Shown piece by piece: positions 3,710 through 22,482 of a stretch of DNA of 26,060 nt. The number at the start of each line of letters is the position of its first letter. Position 1 is the first letter of the stretch. A program made the translations under genes and the position numbers. Origin of the DNA: a virus; the IMG/VR virus record IMGVR_UViG_3300006917_000131, positions 1-26,060 of that record. One strand, 5' to 3'. Below the pieces are notes generated by a model, which was not told the DNA's origin, did no database searches, and saw only the letters and a list, made by a program, of their open reading frames with translations.

Positions 3710-6175
3710 ATGTCACAAACAGCGGCATCAATCGGAGCAGGATTTACAGGTAGTTATGTCGGGGGAGTATACAATTTTCAGGCTGCGGATAGGTCAATTC
3801 TAGGCAATGCTGCCGGAGCAACGGGAGTCATCCCCTACAGCAAAATGGTATGGGGTGGTAGTGGTGAGGCCAAGTTTGTAAACAACAACACGAACGCTCC
3901 ATCGGCTCTCCCTATAAATCTAACAACCGCTGAAAACCAGTGGTTGTATAATGTTATTTCAGACATGGATGGTGTTGTAACTCTTGCGAATGGAATTACG
4001 GCCATCAATATCACAGGCGTAGGGTTCTCAGGAAACATCGTTGTAGATTTGTCCCAAGGCGTGACTATATCTGGTGTTTCTGGTAATTTTAATCTTGGAG
4101 TGACTTTTGGAGCAATACCAGGATACACCTCTGGTGGCTATTTCATGGTCGGAAACTATGAAAATAATGCCGGACAGATTACTCCACTCACAGTCACTGG
4201 TGGTGTACAGATTGCCGGCGGAACGGTAAATGTCTCTGGATTTAATGGAATTATTAATTTCCCTGTCGCTGGCATCACGATATTTGGTACTCAGAACGAC
4301 GATTCCGTTTTAGTCACCTTTGAGGGATTGACTCTAGGTCTTGTTGGTGTCACTTTCGGAGCGGTTGGGACCACTTTTGGTGGAGTGACTTTTGGAACTG
4401 TGGGAGCCACATTCGGAACTGTGGGTGTTACTTTCGGTACGGCAGGCGTGACATTCGGAACTGCCGGTGTTACATTCGGCACGGCAGGTGTAACTTTCGG
4501 AGGAATCACTTTTGGAACAGCCGGTGTCACATTCGGTGGTGTCACTTTTGGCGGAATCACTTTCGGAACAGTCGGTGTTACATTCGGAGTTGCGAGGGTA
4601 CGACCAGAAACAGGCGTTACTTTTGGAGTGGTGTTTACTAACAAGGCAGGCACTCCACTAGGAATATCTGGATCTGAAGTTGTAGGTATGCCTGTGTTCG
4701 GGGTTTGCGGAGCCACAGCAATACGAGTGGAAATTGTAGGAGGATTGAGTGGAATCACGGTGTCTGGACTGGCATTCCCCTCTGAGTTTGGAATTAGTGG
4801 AGGCACAGTCACAGTATCAAACATTGTGGGAACCACTTTCGGTAGTGTGGTCATCGCTGGAACGCCCGGTGTTACTATTTCTGGAAAACTCATAGTAGGC
4901 TTGGACCAGACTTCATCCAACAATGTGGTAGTCGTCGGAAACCTGACCAGCAGACCAGTTTATAATGTGCCTGTTAACTGGAATGATGCTAGTGGAAATA
5001 GACTGAAAGACCATCTGTCTGGTCTTACCGTGGCATCAACAGTGTCTATAGGTGGACTCACTTTCACCTCTGGTTCCAATCTTCCTACCACATCCTTGTT
5101 GGGCGTTTCTTTCGGTGATGTTTCTGTTGGAAATGTTAAACTTGTAAACACCTCTGTTGCGATACAAGGCGATCCCAACAGTTTGGTAAATTATCCTGTG
5201 GGAGTTTCCCTAATAGGAATAGCAGCAACAACCGGAGTCCGAGGCGGAACAAACGACAGAGGCTTGGTTGTTGCTGAAAAGCCTGGTGCGCTCTTTGCTC
5301 TAGGCATGACCCTCAGCAACTTGTTCTTTGGTTTTACTACTAATCCCAGTGATAATATTGCTGGCTCTTGTGGTGGCGGTCAATACTTGTACCTGAAGAG
5401 CACTCCAGTATGTGTCACCACAAATTATTCTGGTCCAGCCGCCAATGGAACCATAAATGGACAAGTCAGCGTTCCTCTAAAGCAAGGCTTGTATGTTCAA
5501 CTCACAAAGTGGGATCTTATTTCCCATGTCCATGTGGGATACACGGCAAGTACCGTTCAGGAGTTCCGTCGTAATGCCCAAGTGCTACACAAGGAATACC
5601 AGATGGCTCCGATTTGGGCACATGCCCTGGACCAGTTCCGCCGATTCCCTGGAGTAACGGGCAATAATGGTCCAATACTGAACAACGATTTTGAGATGAC
5701 AGACAATTCTTGGCCTATGGATGGTGATGGTAGTGCTAGCATGACTCCAGTCCAAAAGCAGTATATCGGAATTATTGAAAAACCCACCCGCATATTCATT
5801 CCGTGCCGTGATGCTGGTGAAGTCTATGTGCTGGTAAACGGAGACTTCTCGGGACACGAAATAGGAGCAGGCTTCTGGGATTTGGAAACGAAAACTTGGA
5901 CTGCTACTACCCTGTACGAACGTTCCTACTACGCCAGTTCTTTCTACGGCTTTACTGCCGGCGAACCAACAATAAGCACTAGCGGAGTTCCAGGGGGTGG
6001 TGCTGGCAGTGGTGGAGAATACGACGGTTGGAGTGATGGTGGAGTCGGTTTTGGCCTCGTTGCTCCAGGAATTTCCGCAGGAACTTCTGAGAATCCTGGA
6101 AATCCCGGCACAGCCATTGCCCAAATACTTGCGGGTTACACCAACAACCCGTTCATACGGGTCTGGGGATACTAA
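3710..6175 (+). CDS. Large virion structural protein with GVTFG repeats
   Basis: The 821 residues are rich in Gly, Val, Thr and Ser and poor in charge. The N-terminal 200 residues contain beta-strand-like stretches with Gly turns. Residues about 213-307 hold fourteen T-F-G units spaced mostly 7 or 5 residues apart (GVTFGTA and GVTFGGITFG types), a pattern that suggests a beta-solenoid or fibrous stalk. A second beta-rich zone (310-540) has related G-V-T-I-S-G motifs. The C-terminal 280 residues are more globular and aromatic, ending in a Gly-rich linker and N-P-F-I-R-V-W-G-Y. I infer a tail fibre, adhesin or other surface protein. It stands alone on the plus strand and meets the minus-strand genes head-on at 6176-6186. 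No specific family is recognised. Confidence 0.8.
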   Translation: MSQTAASIGAGFTGSYVGGVYNFQAADRSILGNAAGATGVIPYSKMVWGGSGEAKFVNNNTNAPSALPINLTTAENQWLYNVISDMDGVVTLANGITAINITGVGFSGNIVVDLSQGVTISGVSGNFNLGVTFGAIPGYTSGGYFMVGNYENNAGQITPLTVTGGVQIAGGTVNVSGFNGIINFPVAGITIFGTQNDDSVLVTFEGLTLGLVGVTFGAVGTTFGGVTFGTVGATFGTVGVTFGTAGVTFGTAGVTFGTAGVTFGGITFGTAGVTFGGVTFGGITFGTVGVTFGVARVRPETGVTFGVVFTNKAGTPLGISGSEVVGMPVFGVCGATAIRVEIVGGLSGITVSGLAFPSEFGISGGTVTVSNIVGTTFGSVVIAGTPGVTISGKLIVGLDQTSSNNVVVVGNLTSRPVYNVPVNWNDASGNRLKDHLSGLTVASTVSIGGLTFTSGSNLPTTSLLGVSFGDVSVGNVKLVNTSVAIQGDPNSLVNYPVGVSLIGIAATTGVRGGTNDRGLVVAEKPGALFALGMTLSNLFFGFTTNPSDNIAGSCGGGQYLYLKSTPVCVTTNYSGPAANGTINGQVSVPLKQGLYVQLTKWDLISHVHVGYTASTVQEFRRNAQVLHKEYQMAPIWAHALDQFRRFPGVTGNNGPILNNDFEMTDNSWPMDGDGSASMTPVQKQYIGIIEKPTRIFIPCRDAGEVYVLVNGDFSGHEIGAGFWDLETKTWTATTLYERSYYASSFYGFTAGEPTISTSGVPGGGAGSGGEYDGWSDGGVGFGLVAPGISAGTSENPGNPGTAIAQILAGYTNNPFIRVWGY
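4349..4627 (+). repeat. In-frame tandem repeats encoding T-F-G units
   Basis: Diverged 21-nt and 15-nt units encode the fourteen T-F-G motifs. Units of the form (G)TTACATTCGG(A/C)AC recur with mostly synonymous changes, so the protein repeat is maintained while the DNA has drifted. Confidence 0.85.
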
Positions 6176-16153: not shown

Positions 16154-16849
16154 TCAAGACCCCAAAAACTTTTCTATCTCTGCGATTGTGTTCAACTCCA
16201 GAGGTTCGGTGAACAGCATGTCCCGTGGACGGTTTTTGTTGAACAGCATTACATCAATGCTCTCTGGTTGCCGTACCACGCTGATATATTCCCGTATCAC
16301 TGCCTTGAGTGAGTCCTTTCGGGACGATCCGAAACTCGCATTGGTCTGTATGCCTATGCCTGGATTTCCCTGAATGGAAAAATACACCCAACCCTTTTCC
16401 GTGGCAAGCACAGACACCGAGGGCATGGTGTCGTAGTATCCGTCTTTCATTATACGCATCACATTCTCGTAATCGTCTTGGTTTTTCTTGAACACACGGC
16501 TGGCAGCATAGGTGTATCGCATGGACTCCGTGGCCTTCCATTCGTCAATGGCCTTACGCATTTCCTGTTCACTGATGCCAAACTTTTCAGGATTCTTGAA
16601 TATCTGTGTTACATGGTAGTTTTTCGAACTCCATCCGAATGTGATGACATCCTTTACGGGATGCCACCAGCCGTACTGACCCCCGGTGCTGGCCCATACC
16701 CGCATCTCCCGTTCACGGGTTCGTCCCTTTTCCTTTGCCAATACCTGTTGTGATATGCGAGCCATGTTCGCCTTCGCCTGTTTTATCTGTGTGGGCGAAA
16801 GTCGAAAGGCTTTAGTTTCGGTAAGGTATTGTAGGAATGTTAGTCGCAA
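16154..16849 (-). CDS. Putative internal head protein, paralogue of the gene at 19822-20526
   Basis: The 231-residue protein starts at TTG 16849, with GGAG 5 nt upstream inside the previous gene. This start is chosen because it gives a capsid-targeting-like leader, M-R-L-T-F-L-Q-Y-L-T-E then T, with cleavage expected after E11. It shares F-R-L-S-P-x-Q-x-K-Q-A-K-A-N-M (residue 15 on), G-W-W-H-P, an R-K-A helix, S-R-x-S-L-K-A-x-x-R-E and a terminal E-x-F-L-x-S with the gene at 19822-20526. A central beta-rich part (V-L-A-T-E-K-G-W-V-Y-F-S-I) is present in both. The function is unknown. Duplication within the same cluster suggests the family is useful to the phage in more than one form. Confidence 0.78.
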   Translation of the reverse strand: MRLTFLQYLTETKAFRLSPTQIKQAKANMARISQQVLAKEKGRTREREMRVWASTGGQYGWWHPVKDVITFGWSSKNYHVTQIFKNPEKFGISEQEMRKAIDEWKATESMRYTYAASRVFKKNQDDYENVMRIMKDGYYDTMPSVSVLATEKGWVYFSIQGNPGIGIQTNASFGSSRKDSLKAVIREYISVVRQPESIDVMLFNKNRPRDMLFTEPLELNTIAEIEKFLGS

Positions 16850-16851
16850 TT

Positions 16852-17070
16852 TTACTCCACATACTTTTTGAGTTTGCTGTAGTAGTCAGGCACTTCTTCC
16901 AAATGATCCATAGCAATTTTGCGTGCCTCGGCATCGCTCTTGGTGTGCTCGTGTTCCACTTTGATGCCCATGTCTAATTGTCGTTGGATGTCCGAAGGCT
17001 CGACCCCGTGCTTTTTGGCAAGGGATTCCACCGTCCGCATCTCACGAATATACTTACGCCAAGGAATCAT
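16852..17070 (-). CDS. DUF5661-like small protein
   Basis: The 72-residue protein has K-K-H-G-V near residue 19, M-G-I-K-V-E-H-E-H-T near 34-43, and I-A-M-D-H-L-E-E-V-P-D-Y-Y-S-K-L near 52-67. The V-E-x-E-H...H-L-x-E-x-P-D-Y-Y pattern is that of the DUF5661 family of bacteria and phages, which has no known function. GGAGG precedes the ATG by 6 nt, and the start overlaps the previous stop (ATGA). Confidence 0.75.
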   Translation of the reverse strand: MIPWRKYIREMRTVESLAKKHGVEPSDIQRQLDMGIKVEHEHTKSDAEARKIAMDHLEEVPDYYSKLKKYVE

Positions 17071-17282
17071 TCTTCGCCTCCTTTGTTTCCCAAGACCTCG
17101 TTCTTGTAGGCATTTGCCACCGAATCAAGTACCTCTTGGTGTGTACGATTCGTGGGTGTGGGGTTTTTCGGTCCCTCCACTGGTTTGCCCTGTAGAATGT
17201 CTTCAATCATCCGTGTGGTTTCGCTGTTGGCGAGCCGTTCCAGTTCATTCCGATTGTCTGGTGTATTTCTCTGTACAGTCAT
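17067..17282 (-). CDS. Small hypothetical protein
   Basis: This is a 71-residue hydrophilic, mostly helical protein (N-E-L-E-R-L-A-N-S-E-T-T-R-M near residue 12; V-L-D-S-V-A-N-A-Y-K-N-E near 51). No family is recognised. It is coupled at both ends by ATGA overlaps, which supports its being a real gene of the operon. Confidence 0.65.
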   Translation of the reverse strand: MTVQRNTPDNRNELERLANSETTRMIEDILQGKPVEGPKNPTPTNRTHQEVLDSVANAYKNEVLGNKGGEE

Positions 17283-17437
17283 TTCACTTCCGCCTTTCGT
17301 TGTTTGGTTTCATCGCCCTTTACAAAGGGATTGTCTTTAACTTTTTTTCCACCCTGTAGTCCACGTCGTCCCCGTTCATAGTTTCCCTTGTCCACAGTGA
17401 ACGAAAAGTCGATGAATGAAATAGTCTGCCGTTTCAT
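17279..17437 (-). CDS. Small basic hypothetical protein (52 aa)
   Basis: The ATG at 17437 overlaps the stop of the 213-residue gene (ATGA), and its TGA overlaps the next ATG in the same way, so it fills the gap exactly. The protein starts M-K-R-Q-T-I-S-F-I-D-F and continues with G-R-R-G-L-Q-G-G-K-K and D-N-P-F-V-K-G-D. It is strongly basic and has no recognised family. The double coupling is the main evidence that it is expressed. Confidence 0.68.
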   Translation of the reverse strand: MKRQTISFIDFSFTVDKGNYERGRRGLQGGKKVKDNPFVKGDETKQRKAEVK

Positions 17438-18075
17438 CGGGGCCGCTTCCACTCATAGCCAGGCTTGGCCTTGCCTGTGTATTTCTGATATTCAGGACTG
17501 TCTTTGCCGTGTACTGCCAGGATTTCTGCCCCGTCCTTTTCCAGGTCTTTCACATACGCATCGAGATGCCGAAGGAACTCGTAGCGGTTTTCCGTTGTCT
17601 GTAGTGTGGTGGGTGGAAACAGCACCGCAAATTGCTGACCGCCCATGCGGAAAACTACAATGGAACGAAAAGCGTACTTGGGGTCTTCTTCACTGGCTTT
17701 CTTTTTGAGCGGGAACATTTTGTAGACATCCACACGCTCTTTCAGCATCCGTGAAGAGATCACATCCCATAGGAGCCGCTTTTCGTCCTTGTCTCCCATA
17801 AGCCTGTAGGTTTTTTCATTCCATTGGAACTCCCCGTCTGAACTCCAGATGGCATTCCATACGGGTGTAGGTATTTTGCCGTACCGTTCTTCCACGGCAC
17901 GGATCTTTGCCTCGAAAACAGCACTGTCCGTGGCAAGACCTTCAGGACGATCAGGATACGCTTTCTTGCCGGCGAGCGTCCACTCCTTGCGGGTGGAATC
18001 CGTTAGGCGTGGCACACTCTTCCAGAACTGTTCAAACTCTGGGTCTATAGGTTTATCCGTTTTGCTGCTCGCCAT
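17434..18075 (-). CDS. Hypothetical protein (213 aa)
   Basis: The frame extends 5' to 18135, but ATG 18075 (M-A-S-S-K-T-D) is preferred because it lies just after a GGCGGAGGG purine tract inside the end of the upstream gene and the longer form has no ribosome site. The protein is a mix of helices and strands with W-N-A-I-W-S near residue 72, M-F-P-L-K-K-K near 120, and a strand F-R-S-I-V-V-F-R-M-G-G-Q-Q-F-A-V-L-F near 135-152. The tail is basic and Pro-containing (W-K-R-P-R). No family is recognised, and no capsid-targeting leader is visible. Confidence 0.75.
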   Translation of the reverse strand: MASSKTDKPIDPEFEQFWKSVPRLTDSTRKEWTLAGKKAYPDRPEGLATDSAVFEAKIRAVEERYGKIPTPVWNAIWSSDGEFQWNEKTYRLMGDKDEKRLLWDVISSRMLKERVDVYKMFPLKKKASEEDPKYAFRSIVVFRMGGQQFAVLFPPTTLQTTENRYEFLRHLDAYVKDLEKDGAEILAVHGKDSPEYQKYTGKAKPGYEWKRPR

Positions 18076-18220
18076 TCCCTCCGCCCTTCTCCCGTTTGGC
18101 ACGGACCCGTTCGTTGTTGGTCTTTCGATTAACATAACGAATCCATGCTTCGTCCAACCGATGCCGATGGGTCATGCCGAAACCACCCTTGCCTTTACCT
18201 TTGGTGTTGTTGCTTGCCAT
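18053..18220 (-). CDS. Small basic protein (55 aa), first gene of the operon
   Basis: The ATG at 18220 is preceded by ACAGGAGCATCGTT, a good ribosome site. The protein begins M-A-S-N-N-T-K-G-K-G-K-G-G-F-G-M-T-H-R-H-R, continues with D-E-A-W-I-R-Y-V-N-R-K, and ends in a Gly/Asn/Gln-rich tail. It overlaps the next gene by 23 nt. The high Lys/Arg/His content suggests nucleic-acid or protein binding, but no family is recognised. Confidence 0.68.
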   Translation of the reverse strand: MASNNTKGKGKGGFGMTHRHRLDEAWIRYVNRKTNNERVRAKREKGGGNGEQQNG

Positions 18221-18239
18221 AACGATGCTCCTGTAAATG

Positions 18240-18464
18240 TTATGTATGGATACGGTTTTCCCGTGTGTGCTTGGTGAGATTGTATGTTTCGTTCCGATGG
18301 AGTTTCAACTGGTCCGAGCGGTAGTGTCGGATGGCTCCACCTTCACACAGGGCCACGCACCACACATCGTTTTCCCATGTTCCTCCGTCCCGCACATATA
18401 CCGCATATGCCTCGTCCCCATCCACGGTCACTACAGGAATGGGATTCGTAAACTCGTGAATCAT
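18240..18464 (-). CDS. Small conserved-looking phage protein (74 aa)
   Basis: The frame runs from 18554, but ATG 18464 is chosen because GGAGGA stands 8 nt before it. The protein starts M-I-H-E-F-T-N-P-I-P-V-V-T and has Y-A-V-Y-V-R-D-G-G-T-W-E-N-D-V-W near residue 20, R-H-Y-R-S-D-Q-L, and a polar basic end. I recall short proteins with this opening in T4-like phages of marine bacteria; no function is known. A CATAAATA late promoter lies upstream at 18526-18533. It may belong to the operon that continues to 8196. Confidence 0.72.
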   Translation of the reverse strand: MIHEFTNPIPVVTVDGDEAYAVYVRDGGTWENDVWCVALCEGGAIRHYRSDQLKLHRNETYNLTKHTRENRIHT

Positions 18465-18525
18465 GGTGTATTCCTCCATTAGTATCAGGCTAAAACCCCA
18501 CGGGTTTCGGCCTTGCTTCCGAAGG

Positions 18526-18533
18526 TATTTATG
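18526..18533 (-). promoter_or_regulatory. T4-type late promoter
   Basis: CATAAATA lies 61 nt upstream of the 74-residue gene and may drive the whole operon ending at 8196. Confidence 0.55.
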
Positions 18534-18597
18534 CCCGCTCTGGTCTACATACAAGACCCGAACATGGTGTTCAGGGAACTATACAAAAGGAAAGAAT

Positions 18598-18780
18598 ATG
18601 CTCATCAACTGGATCAAAACTTTCGTAGCGGATCAACGTGGTGCGGAGAGCACCGAACTCGCCATCACCACTCTTGTCGTGGCAGGCGGAGCCGTCGCTG
18701 GATATACCAGCGTCAAGAACAAGATCGGTGACAAGACCGACGACCTGCTCGGCAAACTGGACGAATCCACAGCCGACTGA
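18598..18780 (+). CDS. Flp-type pilin-like small protein
   Basis: This is a 60-residue protein. It starts with a short basic/hydrophobic segment (M-L-I-N-W-I-K-T-F-V), then D-Q-R-G-A-E-S-T-E, which resembles a class III prepilin peptidase site: cleavage after G would put Glu at position +5 of the mature form. A hydrophobic helix follows (L-A-I-T-T-L-V-V-A-G-G-A-V-A-G-Y), then a polar tail. This is the layout of Flp/Fap pilins of the Tad secretion system. AAAGGAAAG precedes the ATG by 3 nt; longer upstream starts lack a ribosome site. The gene is alone on the plus strand within minus-strand genes and has its own terminator, so it looks like an independent cargo gene. No clear promoter is seen. 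It could instead be an unrelated small membrane protein. Confidence 0.78.
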   Translation: MLINWIKTFVADQRGAESTELAITTLVVAGGAVAGYTSVKNKIGDKTDDLLGKLDESTAD

Positions 18781-18803
18781 TTGGAACATAACTTAAAGAA
18801 ACA

Positions 18804-18836
18804 GGGCTGGCCTTTGAGCCAGCCCTTTTCTATTTT
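18804..18836 (+). terminator. Rho-independent terminator after the pilin-like gene
   Basis: GGGCTGGC pairs perfectly with GCCAGCCC across loop CTTTGA and is followed by TTTTCTATTTT. On the minus strand the same stem is followed by TGTTTCTTT, so it may also slow transcription from the right. Confidence 0.9.
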
Positions 18837-18860
18837 AGTAATTTAATACTATTGATAGTT

Positions 18861-19286
18861 TTATGTTTCCCAATCTTCTCTACCAGAAGGGTTTGGCTCC
18901 GGATACTCCCGTCGCCCTCGCCGGTGGTCTTCTTGTTCCTTTTCTTTTTGTTTTCTTTTTTCTTCTTCTCTTTTACGTCTAATCGCATCTGCCCTTGCCT
19001 GATCTCTGCCTCTCGCCGCTTCTCGTTCGTTTTCTGCTTGTGCTTGGTTTGATGCTCTGACCCATTCTATTGCTTCATTTTTATCGTCAAAATATCTTAT
19101 TTCTTTTGTTTGTCTGTGCATTCCCCCGTACCCTGTGGGGGTTTCCCAGACTGTTCCTGGTTTTCGGGTTTTTGGGTCTGTTTTTTTCTCTTTGTTTGCT
19201 TTTCTTTTGGCAAAAGCCCGCTTGATTGCGCCAAAAATTTCGTTAATTTGTTCTACTTCTTCTTTGAACTGTCTGTAGTTTTTCAT
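18861..19286 (-). CDS. Putative internal head protein with W...YF module
   Basis: This is a 141-residue protein. The leader M-K-N-Y-R-Q-F-K-E-E-V-E-Q-I-N-E then I matches T4 capsid-targeting sequences; cleavage is expected after E16. Residues 42-79 carry the shared module (K-P-G-T-V-W-E-T-P-T-G-Y-G, R-Y-F, A-I-E-W-V). The rest (80-141) is a highly charged helix rich in Arg, Lys and Glu. The ribosome site ACAGGAGACACGGG is nearly identical to that of the next gene upstream, and the first codons are also similar, which points to duplication. The function of the module is unknown. Confidence 0.78.
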   Translation of the reverse strand: MKNYRQFKEEVEQINEIFGAIKRAFAKRKANKEKKTDPKTRKPGTVWETPTGYGGMHRQTKEIRYFDDKNEAIEWVRASNQAQAENEREAARGRDQARADAIRRKREEEKRKQKEKEQEDHRRGRREYPEPNPSGREDWET

Positions 19287-19301
19287 CCCGTGTCTCCTGT
19301 G

Positions 19302-19793
19302 TTAATCGTCGTCACGATTCATTCTCCGTCGAATCCGTTGACGTTCGGCCTCCCATTCAGCGTGTTGTTGAAGTTCTTTTCGCCAACTTTGTATCCATTT
19401 TTCTGCTGCTTCTCTAGTTTTAAAATACTCTATCATCAATTCCCCATGATGCTTTGTGGGAGCGGCTGCTCCAAACCCTGTAGGTGTTTTCCAGATTTCG
19501 CCCATTCTTCTTTTTTGTTTGTCCTGTGAAATTTGTGCTTTATGTTTGGCAATCTCGTTTCTCTTTTTTCGCCTCTGTAATGCTTGCTTGTATCTTTCTT
19601 TTCTTCCTATATTTCTCTCGATCTTTCTGGCTAATCGTTTCACTCCTCGTTTTATGAAACGAGGTGTAAGTGCAGATACTGCTTTTGCCACCGGTACGAT
19701 AACCGTTGTGGGGTCACCGATAGGTATTCCCGATGGGAGGCTTGCCTCATTCAGACTATCTATTTCTTCTTTGAACTGTTTGTAGGTTTTCAT
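19302..19793 (-). CDS. Putative internal head protein with W...YF module, paralogue
   Basis: This is a 163-residue protein. The leader M-K-T-Y-K-Q-F-K-E-E-I-D-S-L-N-E then A is close to T4 M-K-T-Y-Q-E-F-I-A-E then A; cleavage is expected after E16. A Gly/Pro/Val segment (17-43) is followed by a very basic helix (44-95) and the shared module at 97-136 (M-G-E-I-W-K-T-P-T-G-F-G, E-Y-F, A-A-E-K-W-I). The end is Arg-rich. The late promoter CATAAATA (19826-19819) lies 25 nt upstream, overlapping the stop of the preceding gene. The basic region suggests DNA binding inside the head, which is an inference. Confidence 0.78.
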   Translation of the reverse strand: MKTYKQFKEEIDSLNEASLPSGIPIGDPTTVIVPVAKAVSALTPRFIKRGVKRLARKIERNIGRKERYKQALQRRKKRNEIAKHKAQISQDKQKRRMGEIWKTPTGFGAAAPTKHHGELMIEYFKTREAAEKWIQSWRKELQQHAEWEAERQRIRRRMNRDDD

Positions 19794-19818
19794 CCCGTGT
19801 CTCCTGTGATAATCTATC

Positions 19819-19826
19819 TATTTATG
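19819..19826 (-). promoter_or_regulatory. T4-type late promoter
   Basis: CATAAATA contains the TAA stop of the upstream gene and precedes the ATG at 19793 by 25 nt. Confidence 0.6.
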
Positions 19827-20526
19827 AGTTCAAGAACCGCTCGATGGCTTCACGGTTTCGGATCAAGGTAAACGCTTCCTTGCCGCTGTCCGTGACCCCG
19901 ACCTCGATCTGGAACATCTCAGGCTTTTTCTCTGCGGAATCCAGTGTATCAAGAATCTCTCGGAACAGGGCTTTGAGGGAACGACGGCTTCCAGAGAACG
20001 CCCCGTCCATACGGATCATCCCGGATTTGCGGATCATAACCCACCCATTAGCATAGGCAAATTTGGTAAGGGTTGGGTCGGCGTCAATCTCACCGTCCTG
20101 TAAACGGTGTATAGTGGTTTCAACTTCCTCTTCCCATTTAGCCGAACCACGGGAGATGCCCACGGTGTACTCTGTGTAATCTTCCGCTGCCTTTCGGACC
20201 TGTTCTTTGGTCACTCCGAACGTGGCAGGAAAACGGGCAATCTGGTTTACATGCTGATTGCTGCCTACACGCCAGCCGAAAAGGTGGGCAGGCTTGTCGG
20301 GATGCCACCACCCCGTAATCCGATCACCGCTCAGATCCGCCCAATCAATATCAGGTTTTCGCTTGGGCTTTCCCTTGCGCTTTTCCCGATCGAGGACTTC
20401 CGCTGCGATACGGGACATGTTGGCTTTGGCCTGTTTTCTTTGGGCAGGAGACAGCCGAAAAGCCCGGGCTTGTGCGGCACGGGCTTCTCTCAGGGTTTCG
20501 GTGATGAACTGGAAAAGCAAGGACAT
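19822..20526 (-). CDS. Putative internal head protein, paralogue of the gene at 16154-16849
   Basis: This is a 234-residue protein. The leader M-S-L-L-F-Q-F-I-T-E then T puts the candidate cut after E10, the same position as in T4 internal proteins. It shares F-R-L-S-P-x-Q-x-K-Q-A-K-A-N-M (residue 23 on), G-W-W-H-P, V-R-K-A, and a C-terminal S-R-R-S-L-K-A-L-F-R-E and F-L-N-S with the paralogue. The ATG follows the previous stop directly (TGAATG). The core looks like a mixed alpha/beta domain, and no known family is recognised. Confidence 0.78.
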   Translation of the reverse strand: MSLLFQFITETLREARAAQARAFRLSPAQRKQAKANMSRIAAEVLDREKRKGKPKRKPDIDWADLSGDRITGWWHPDKPAHLFGWRVGSNQHVNQIARFPATFGVTKEQVRKAAEDYTEYTVGISRGSAKWEEEVETTIHRLQDGEIDADPTLTKFAYANGWVMIRKSGMIRMDGAFSGSRRSLKALFREILDTLDSAEKKPEMFQIEVGVTDSGKEAFTLIRNREAIERFLNS

Positions 20527-20826
20527 TCAGAAGCCCATCGAATCCATCCACAGCATCATTGCCGCATCATGGTAATGTCCAGCCTTGGCCTTGGCCTGAG
20601 CAAGGGGCAGTTGGGCTTCCATCCACTCAATGTGATTCTGTTTTTCTTTGAGTTCTCTTTTTTCAGATTTCATAATTTCTTTCCATCTTTTCACTCTGTA
20701 TTTGTAGTTTTCCTTGTCCTTGCTAAGAACCAGTTCTTTTGCTTGCTGTTGCTTGTTGGGGAGCATTGGTTTTTTGTCTTTGAGTCTCAGTTTTGCTTCT
20801 GTCAACATTTGCTTGAATGTTTTCAC
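20527..20826 (-). CDS. Putative internal head protein (99 aa), GTG start
   Basis: GTG at 20826 is preferred over the longer frame because GAGAGG precedes it and the product starts V/M-K-T-F-K-Q-M-L-T-E then A, almost the T4 capsid-targeting leader, with the cut expected after E10. The rest is a single long charged helix rich in Lys and Glu (residues 15-80), ending A-A-M-M-L-W-M-D-S-M-G-F. It lies 34 nt after the 151-residue gene and abuts the next one. Confidence 0.75.
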   Translation of the reverse strand: MKTFKQMLTEAKLRLKDKKPMLPNKQQQAKELVLSKDKENYKYRVKRWKEIMKSEKRELKEKQNHIEWMEAQLPLAQAKAKAGHYHDAAMMLWMDSMGF

Positions 20827-20860
20827 TAGTCTGCCCTCTCTCTTGTAGTTTGTTGAACCC

Positions 20861-21316
20861 TTAGTCGCTGTCGAACGCCCAAGCCCCCAGGTCATCAACT
20901 GCCGATTCGATGGTATCGTAGTCGCCTTTCTCGATCCCCTTCTTGCCTTTGGCTTCAGCATCTCTGAGCCATTCCTTGTGCCATTTCACGGCATCGGTTT
21001 CGGTGTAGAGCCTATCTTCAATATTCGCCTTGCCTTTGGGTGTCTTGGCACTGGCGAGTTTTTCCTTGAGTTTGACTACCAGACGTTCCATCTTGGCTAT
21101 TTTCTTCTTGAAGATCTTGACCATATTGGCGAAGTCCTTTTTTACATAAGCCAGATCCTCTGCGCTCGGGGCTTCGTCCTCGACCCACTTTGCTTCTTCG
21201 ATTTCAGCGTTGGTACGGCGTGGCCCGCCGGCTGGTCCTGATGCCGAACCCTTCGCCTCGTCCAAAATCTTTTGCGCCGATTCGATCAGCCCCTGGTATT
21301 CTTTGAATAGTTTCAT
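20861..21316 (-). CDS. Putative internal head protein (151 aa), coiled coil
   Basis: The ATG at 21316 has ribosome site CAGGAGCACGGG, matching the leaders of the genes at 19793 and 19286. The protein starts M-K-L-F-K-E-Y-Q-G-L-I-E-S-A-Q-K-I-L-D-E then A, with LIE (10-12) and LDE (18-20) as candidate cuts. Residues 60-105 form a Lys-rich coiled coil (M-V-K-I-F-K-K-K-I-A-K-M-E-R-L-V-V-K-L-K-E-K-L), followed by an acidic end (D-D-L-G-A-W-A-F-D-S-D). It is the first gene of this minus-strand group, diverging from the plus-strand gene at 21400. No family is recognised. Confidence 0.75.
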   Translation of the reverse strand: MKLFKEYQGLIESAQKILDEAKGSASGPAGGPRRTNAEIEEAKWVEDEAPSAEDLAYVKKDFANMVKIFKKKIAKMERLVVKLKEKLASAKTPKGKANIEDRLYTETDAVKWHKEWLRDAEAKGKKGIEKGDYDTIESAVDDLGAWAFDSD

Positions 21317-21399
21317 CCCGTGCTCCTGTGTGTGTGTTTCCCGTGATACTCTATATATAGTATTCCTCTTCCTACATAGGGGTGGAGGACCGCATCCAC
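21317..21399. promoter_or_regulatory. Divergent intergenic region with an 18-nt near-palindrome
   Basis: ATACTCTATATATAGTAT (about 21344-21361) is nearly self-complementary and lies between divergent genes. It could hold overlapping promoters or an operator. Neither a clear TTGACY/TATAAT pair nor an exact CATAAATA is present. Confidence 0.35.
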
Positions 21400-22482
21400 A
21401 TGGACAAGAAACCACAGCAAACAAACCCAAGAATCTCTTTGCGAGAACTGCCTCGGACCATACACCCTGGAGCCGCACCCGTGAACCCACCGACCAGATG
21501 GAACCCCACCACCACCATAATCTACGATTGGGCACCCGTCGAGATTCCCGAGGTGAAGGCCAAACTGGACCAGGTTCGTGCGGAGCCCTATATCCTGGTG
21601 TATCAGAATATTGATCCTGATTCGGCAAAGACCGGCATCATTAATCCCGATCTCATCATTCGTGAGATACGGGCAAAGCACGGGGAGAATCCGGGTGGCT
21701 GGGGAATGCTGGACTACGAGGAACCGTTTGACCGTGTGCTACAGAGCGGACCCGACAATCCTGAATACGGCAAGTGCACCAAATCCATGCTCGGTGCACT
21801 GGAAGCCGTGCGCCAGGCGTTCCCCCGTGTGCGTTGGACCTACTACGGAATGCCGGGCCTGTCGTACTGGCCTGGTGGAAAACTCTGGGCCTTTGCGGAC
21901 GAAGGGGCACGGCAGGCAGAGATTGAACGGCAAATCGTAGCCTATGGTTCGGTCTTACGGGAACTGGATTGGTATTCCCCGTGCGTGTACGATGTGTACG
22001 ACCTGAACCGGTTCGGGCAGCGGGAACAGGCCAGCCATCTGGTGAACGAACGGGAATACCGCCTGAGTCGGGTAGGTGTGGTTCGTGAACTACTGCGGCG
22101 TGAGGGATTGGGCCACCGTCCGGTACTGCCAGCCGTTTCACCGTTCTTTGCCCCTGGTGGGAATGCCGTGGAAAACCAACGGATTCCACCCGATGAACTC
22201 GTACGGGACCAGATCGCCCCGCTTGTGGCTGCCGGGTGTGACGGGGTTTGTATATGGTCTGCCGCCCAGTGGTACGGAGCCCAAGCCGTGCGCCCGGACG
22301 ATCCACGAAACAAGGCTCAGGCTCGGGTCCGCCCCGTGTTCACCCGTGACTACTTTGGTGGCACGGAACCCCAGTGGACCGATCCACAGACCCGGGTCAC
22401 GCTTTGGGCAGGATTGGGCAATGCCATTGCAGACATGGCTGTGGCTGCGGGTGCTGAATGGCGGCGACCTCGAACGGTCTAG
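21400..22482 (+). CDS. Glycoside-hydrolase-like protein (GH56-like TIM barrel suspected)
   Basis: ATG 21400 is chosen because GGTGGAGG lies 11 nt upstream; a GTG at 21382 is the alternative. The product is 360 residues. After a Pro-rich start, strand P-Y-I-L-V-Y-Q-N (63-70) is followed by W-G-M-L-D-Y-E-E-P-F (101-110), which resembles the catalytic D-W-E of GH56 hyaluronidases. Then come V-R-W-T-Y-Y-G-M-P-G (144-153) and a long helix leading to D-W-Y-S-P-C-V-Y-D (190-198). Late on are I-P-P-D-E-L-V near 262 and G-C-D-G-V-C-I-W-S-A (279-288), which look like the closing strands of a barrel. D105 and E107 are the candidate catalytic residues. A role in degrading a host surface or capsule polysaccharide is plausible. 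There is no signal peptide. The family is tentative. Confidence 0.72.
   Translation: MDKKPQQTNPRISLRELPRTIHPGAAPVNPPTRWNPTTTIIYDWAPVEIPEVKAKLDQVRAEPYILVYQNIDPDSAKTGIINPDLIIREIRAKHGENPGGWGMLDYEEPFDRVLQSGPDNPEYGKCTKSMLGALEAVRQAFPRVRWTYYGMPGLSYWPGGKLWAFADEGARQAEIERQIVAYGSVLRELDWYSPCVYDVYDLNRFGQREQASHLVNEREYRLSRVGVVRELLRREGLGHRPVLPAVSPFFAPGGNAVENQRIPPDELVRDQIAPLVAAGCDGVCIWSAAQWYGAQAVRPDDPRNKAQARVRPVFTRDYFGGTEPQWTDPQTRVTLWAGLGNAIADMAVAAGAEWRRPRTV

Follow-up and report, generated by a model that had tools for sequence, protein, structure and literature searches.

What is a single pilin-like gene doing in a phage of the T4 superfamily? The window analysed here, by which we mean the whole stretch of 26,060 nucleotides, is a 26-kb virus record of metagenomic origin, a fragment of such a phage, in which the gp32 ssDNA-binding protein and the gp59 helicase loader are both encoded on the minus strand. 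The gp32 protein is 81% identical to those of two environmental contigs and 53-55% identical to cyanophage-type gp32. Nearly all of the genes in the window lie on the minus strand, including the neighbours of the ORF that concerns us, which is itself read from the plus strand. The nearest neighbour usable as a query (17434-18135) found no relatives.

The segment from 18598 to 18780 on the plus strand is a real gene of 60 codons. It starts with ATG at 18598 and ends with TGA at 18780, and the translation (leader, then mature part as predicted) reads MLINWIKTFVADQRG/AESTELAITTLVVAGGAVAGYTSVKNKIGDKTDDLLGKLDESTAD. The 60-residue product carries Gly15-Ala16, Glu20 (position 5 of the mature form), a single hydrophobic stretch and a polar tail, in agreement with the initial annotation, which had noted the length, the G-A-x-x-x-E start, the one hydrophobic helix and the polar tail. 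The ribosome site claimed there was also found: the Shine-Dalgarno sequence AAGGAAAG, read at 18587-18594 of the plus strand, is well spaced and has a duplex energy of -5.6 kcal/mol, equal to that of the phage's gp32 site; the corresponding value for a 72-aa ORF overlapping the gene in antisense orientation is -0.9. When codon usage was scored against the phage's own genes, the pilin frame obtained 0.286 per codon versus 0.017 for the antisense ORF, and the other plus-strand frames were negative. This score ranks second among 30 genes and ORFs of the window, the only higher one being that of a 55-codon ORF at 18053-18220 (0.298). The antisense ORF was dropped as a candidate for the gene on account of its near-zero coding score and poor ribosome site, and a 105-aa upstream extension of the pilin frame was dropped for want of a ribosome site.

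Folding identified an intrinsic terminator at 18803-18836 (plus strand), consisting of a hairpin of 9-10 pairs (18803-18826; z = -4.3 versus shuffles) followed by a T tract. The hairpin lies between two convergent stops, at 18780 (plus) and 18861 (minus), so that it can serve both genes and may not be specific to the pilin gene; it is probably used from both sides. The convergent gene (18861-19286, minus strand) encodes 141 aa beginning MKNYRQFKEEV..., a capsid-targeting-like start. The plus strand upstream of the pilin gene showed neither a sigma-70 nor a T4-late promoter. The T4-late-promoter-like sequence CATAAATA at 18526-18533 is on the minus strand and faces the divergent gene 18240-18464, not the pilin gene.

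Sequence comparison places the phage product among the Flp (type IVb/Tad) pilins, as a diverged member. Searches of Pfam, NCBIfam, PHROGs and the PDB by sequence and of structures with Foldseek returned nothing usable, and the PF04964 model was silent on the window. The homology became apparent when the protein alone was compared with 398 sampled Pseudomonadota genomes: the matches ranking ahead of the first non-pilin were all short ORFs for Flp-type pilins, many of them in tandem arrays. In the order to which the best genome belongs, called here alphaproteobacterial-type on the basis of the pilin sequences and of the sampling centre, 65 of 292 genomes matched at E <= 0.01 (best score, 27.8 bits), as opposed to none of 148 genomes of the same order when the query was a shuffled control preserving the leader/core/helix/tail layout. 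A Gammaproteobacteria-like class (the class name being inferred) is disfavoured as the source (0/369 genomes). The best relatives take the form MMKFIKTFRADEDGAVTVDWVVLTAAVVGLAIAAYTSIE, and the best one of all, whose genomic context was examined, immediately precedes genes for RcpC/CpaB, a secretin, a CpaE-like AAA ATPase and a T2SSE ATPase, that is, in a tad locus. Ungapped similarity to relatives of the L226/L255 type extends over about 50 residues at 31-41% identity.

The cellular relatives scanned themselves lie below or outside the curated models, which accounts for the failure of annotation to recognise the phage protein. Three relatives of the DW type matched DUF4244 in Pfam weakly and below cut-off (one of them also Flp1_like) and gave no match to PF04964; a fourth, of the EY type, matched PF04964 below cut-off. 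The DW type (GAVTVDWVVLTAA) forms a tandem Flp family in the alphaproteobacterial-type order (L226, L227, L233, L247 and others), and the members scanned fall under all Pfam cut-offs. An HMM of 202 cellular Flps assigned the phage protein 31.6 bits, a score reached by none of 20,000 full shuffles, none of 20,000 layout-preserving shuffles and none of 2,914 ORFs of other T4-type contigs. This profile was partly built from sequences found through the phage query itself, and the test was therefore repeated with 125 independently found classic Flps. The independent HMM gave the phage protein 13.1 bits, placing it second among 20,001 sequences, and scored the untrimmed pilin frame at 10.8 against 2.8 for the next ORF of the window. 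A few layout-preserving shuffles scored above the phage protein with the independent narrow HMM, reaching up to 18.9 bits; the evidence from the independent profile is thus good but, alone, not overwhelming. The Flp likeness proposed in the initial annotation is borne out by the profiles and genome searches built here, though not by curated pilin models, which gave no match. Direct searches of the viral_contigs, genome_contigs, phages and plasmids collections found no relatives of the phage pilin, and when the Flp alignments A1 and A2 served as queries, the same gene was not found in any other phage.

In two contigs, L002 and L003, the genes on both flanks of the region occur in the same order but the pilin gene has no counterpart, which marks it as probably lineage-specific cargo. 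Probably it was captured from a Tad-positive bacterium. The idea of an independent, moron-like unit holds insofar as the gene stands alone, on the opposite strand, and is absent from both syntenic contigs; it is weakened by the lack of a recognisable promoter and by a terminator which, strong as had been claimed, is probably shared. A chimaeric join in the metagenomic record is conceivable, though the gene sits among phage genes whose codon usage it matches. As to the host, the closest cellular pilins come from the alphaproteobacterial-type order and the phage has a one-piece tmRNA, a type that Alphaproteobacteria are not known to use; the two clues therefore disagree.

Alignment with cellular Flps separates the features that the phage protein has kept from those that it has lost. 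The leader has 15 residues (mostly 13-17 in the cellular set) and ends at a predicted prepilin peptidase site, Gly15/Ala16 (18640-18645), placed by alignment to the Flp cleavage site. The mature chains of pilins in the PDB start at an alanine aligned with Ala16. Ala1 is present in 120 of 125 cellular sequences, and the invariance of Gly(-1) among them follows from the way the set was constructed. Gly(-1) and Ala1 are conserved across relatives, as is an acidic residue at position 5 (Glu20 in the phage, Glu or Asp in the relatives), consistent with the predicted conservation of the G-A...E5 positions in homologues. The residue after Glu5 (18655-18660 for the pair) is leucine (Leu21, mature position 6). 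By position count, this residue is tyrosine or tryptophan in all 202 sequences judged genuine pilins among 204 cellular sequences chosen with position 6 left open. The hydrophobic segment that follows (18661-18711) is the weakest in the comparison with these 204 sequences, with a mean hydropathy of 1.34 versus a median of 2.24. A single-sequence AlphaFold model (mean pLDDT 76) predicts a leader helix, a break at residues 14-18, where the cleavage site lies, and a long helix from 19 to 59, a fold expected for an Flp and not diagnostic of one. The size of the protein and its single N-terminal helix without a globular domain fit the Flp class (about 45-70 aa).

The two residues at mature positions 5 and 6 correspond to Glu19 and Tyr20 of Caulobacter PilA. 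The cryo-EM study of the Caulobacter Tad pilus reports that these residues make inter-subunit hydrogen bonds and are crucial for Tad assembly, whereas expression and processing of the pilin do not depend on them (PMC11067988). With the aromatic residue lost and Glu5 and the cleavage signal kept, one would expect a subunit to be processed and inserted but to polymerise badly. We thus favour, at a probability of about 40%, the reading that the product is a processed, assembly-defective pilin which interferes with the Tad pili of the host. The protein would be inserted into the inner membrane of the infected cell, where the host prepilin peptidase (CpaA/TadV) would cleave it behind Gly15; the processed form would then join or jam the Tad assembly platform, where the normal contact between Glu5 and an aromatic residue 6 could not form, which would make it a spoiler subunit, dominant-negative or capping in effect. 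The infected cell would carry fewer Tad pili, and either pilus-dependent phages would be excluded or adhesion would stop. The gene, its homology and motif, the lost residue, the lone context and the recurrence in other phages are observed; processing, interference and the benefit to the phage are inferred. No Tad machinery genes were recognised in the window. Interference with Tad pili had already been put forward in the initial annotation; it is plausible on sequence grounds, and the missing Tyr/Trp6 slightly strengthens the case.

In Caulobacter, Tad pili serve phages as receptors; the pili also have a central role in adhesion. The phage product resembles the Flp/PilA subunits of Tad systems, in particular the GAVTVDWVVLTAA variant (L226/L255), in its length of about 60 aa, its leader of 14-15 residues, the Gly/Ala site, the acidic position 5 and the single helix; it differs in Leu6, in the less hydrophobic helix and in standing alone in a phage rather than in a tad locus. 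Small phage proteins directed against pili are known from Pseudomonas: D3112 Gp05 and DMS3 Aqs1 inactivate the PilB ATPase, and vB_Pae_QDWS Gp21 lowers the expression of PilA and PilB (PMC11436027). The likeness, which we draw by analogy, would be that a small protein of the phage suppresses a pilus serving phages as receptor; unlike Gp05, Aqs1 and Gp21, the protein described here is homologous to pilins and would presumably poison Tad assembly. If so, a pilin-based route would be added to the known anti-pilus strategies of phages, whose targets are the motor ATPase or gene expression. A phage pilin with an intact processing site and without the assembly aromatic would also be a ready-made tool for probing how Tad assembly can be poisoned.

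Phage-borne Flps as such are not new, since they have already been reported in prophages: single Flp pilin genes occur in the Vibrio harveyi prophages phi345 and phiGANI1709 (PMC12482185), and an Flp pilin in phiLM21-like prophages of Sinorhizobium meliloti (PMC12429752). Those phages are temperate and their pilins have been read as virulence or accessory factors, whereas the present gene belongs to a T4-superfamily phage and has an altered assembly residue. The phrase 'phage-encoded pilin' was not found in the literature, and comparison of 50,697 cultured phages with the Flps tried gave no match of meaningful score. Classic Flps matched 36 contigs among 2.9 million IMG/VR viral contigs. In most of these matches the gene may be the host's, at the edge of a prophage; a match was counted as a phage gene only if phage genes flank it. 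At least two groups of Flps in real phages were found in this way, one in L285/L286 (together with L291) and one in L298-L300. In L285/L286, which come from contigs of 183 kb and 93 kb, a tmRNA gene begins no more than 10 bases after a lone Flp gene. The 183-kb L285 record is T4-type, as judged from its gp23, gp32-like and terminase matches and from PhoH and a PD-(D/E)XK nuclease near the Flp gene. L291 has the same Flp-tmRNA pair, and its Flp is 75% identical to that of L285 at the protein level. The dN/dS ratio of the two genes is about 0.08, an approximate value in that it derives from one pair and 51 codons with dS near saturation; by this sequence measure the pair is under purifying selection. 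In L298-L300, a longer-tailed Flp (L300:10001-10246) has its gene in the head module, flanked by a portal-like gene and the gene for the major head protein, with a terminase nearby.

All of these Flps stand alone among phage genes, as does ours; they adjoin a tmRNA gene (L285/L291) or lie in a head gene module (L298-L300), and they differ from it in keeping Glu5-Tyr6; the presumed spoiler trait is thus not shared by all phage Flps. Lone Flp genes turn up in phages unrelated to one another, which suggests a broader class, for the most part unannotated and overlooked by current models. That large phages, the T4 superfamily included, repeatedly capture single Flp genes, some of which, like the present one, would lack the assembly contact and serve as poison pilins to shut down Tad pili, is a tentative and somewhat doubtful generalisation. 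The Flp-tmRNA pair occupies L285:6028-6538 and L291:6010-6503, and the tmRNA tag, ANNNNHFELALAA, is conserved in the two different phages.

The Tyr6-bearing phage Flps bear directly on another reading, by which the product would be an assembly-competent replacement or extra pilin and the phage would keep or alter host Tad pili for adhesion, biofilm formation or receptor supply. The Flp homology of the product accords with such a role; the Flps of L285, L291 and L298 retain Glu5-Tyr6, with the apparent purifying selection on the L285/L291 pair, and a hydrophobic residue could partly stand in for the aromatic one. Leucine at a position occupied by Tyr or Trp in 202/202 cellular pilins, and a helix less hydrophobic than that of any cellular pilin compared, nevertheless render this reading unlikely. 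The same two deviations may instead reflect drift away from the pilin role, the homologue having been repurposed for some other phage membrane task (a block of DNA injection of the Imm/Sp kind, or a lysis-related function) that leaves pili unaffected. T4 phages do exclude superinfection by means of small membrane proteins, Imm and Sp, which set a precedent, and one of the phage Flps gave a sub-threshold match to a holin profile. Retention of the class III leader and of the G-A-xxx-E signature, neither of which would be needed for such a task, argues against it, and we hold this possibility, too, to be improbable.

A captured host pilin gene in decay, carried as a passenger without selected function, would account for the single known copy, for its absence from the syntenic contigs L002 and L003 and for deviations at normally fixed positions. 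T4-type phages, however, keep few idle genes, and the frame is open, with very good codon adaptation and an intact ribosome site, all of which leaves little probability for decay. Finally, chance resemblance of an unrelated single-helix small membrane protein, pilin-like only in appearance, would agree with the empty Pfam, NCBIfam, PHROGs and PDB searches but is very improbable in view of the genome-search enrichment over the shuffled control, the profile scores, the leader length and the relatives in tad loci.

Some further features of the window were noted. The one-piece tmRNA gene lies at 1380-1712 on the minus strand (Rfam RF00023, 99.8 bits), adjoining genes for tRNA-Leu, Ala, Ser and Gln; its tag, read by eye, is ANTNYRLAA. 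Besides this phage, two other phage contigs that bear an Flp gene have a tmRNA. The ARAGORN placement of this gene at 1232-1572 was rejected as a wrong position. A second plus-strand island, at 21382-22482, has 366 codons, a GC content of 59% and the sequence TATATATA 30 bases upstream; no family was found for it. An 821-codon gene of the plus strand (3710-6175), likewise without a family match, has partial relatives in L003, L007 and L008. A long series of minus-strand genes whose products start with MKTYKQFKEE-, MKNYRQFKEE-, MKLFKEYQGL- or MSLLFQFITE-like sequences occupies 16154-21316 of the window, L002:2600-8400 and L003:700-5850. These starts resemble the capsid-targeting sequence of T4, and the genes possibly encode internal head proteins in large number.
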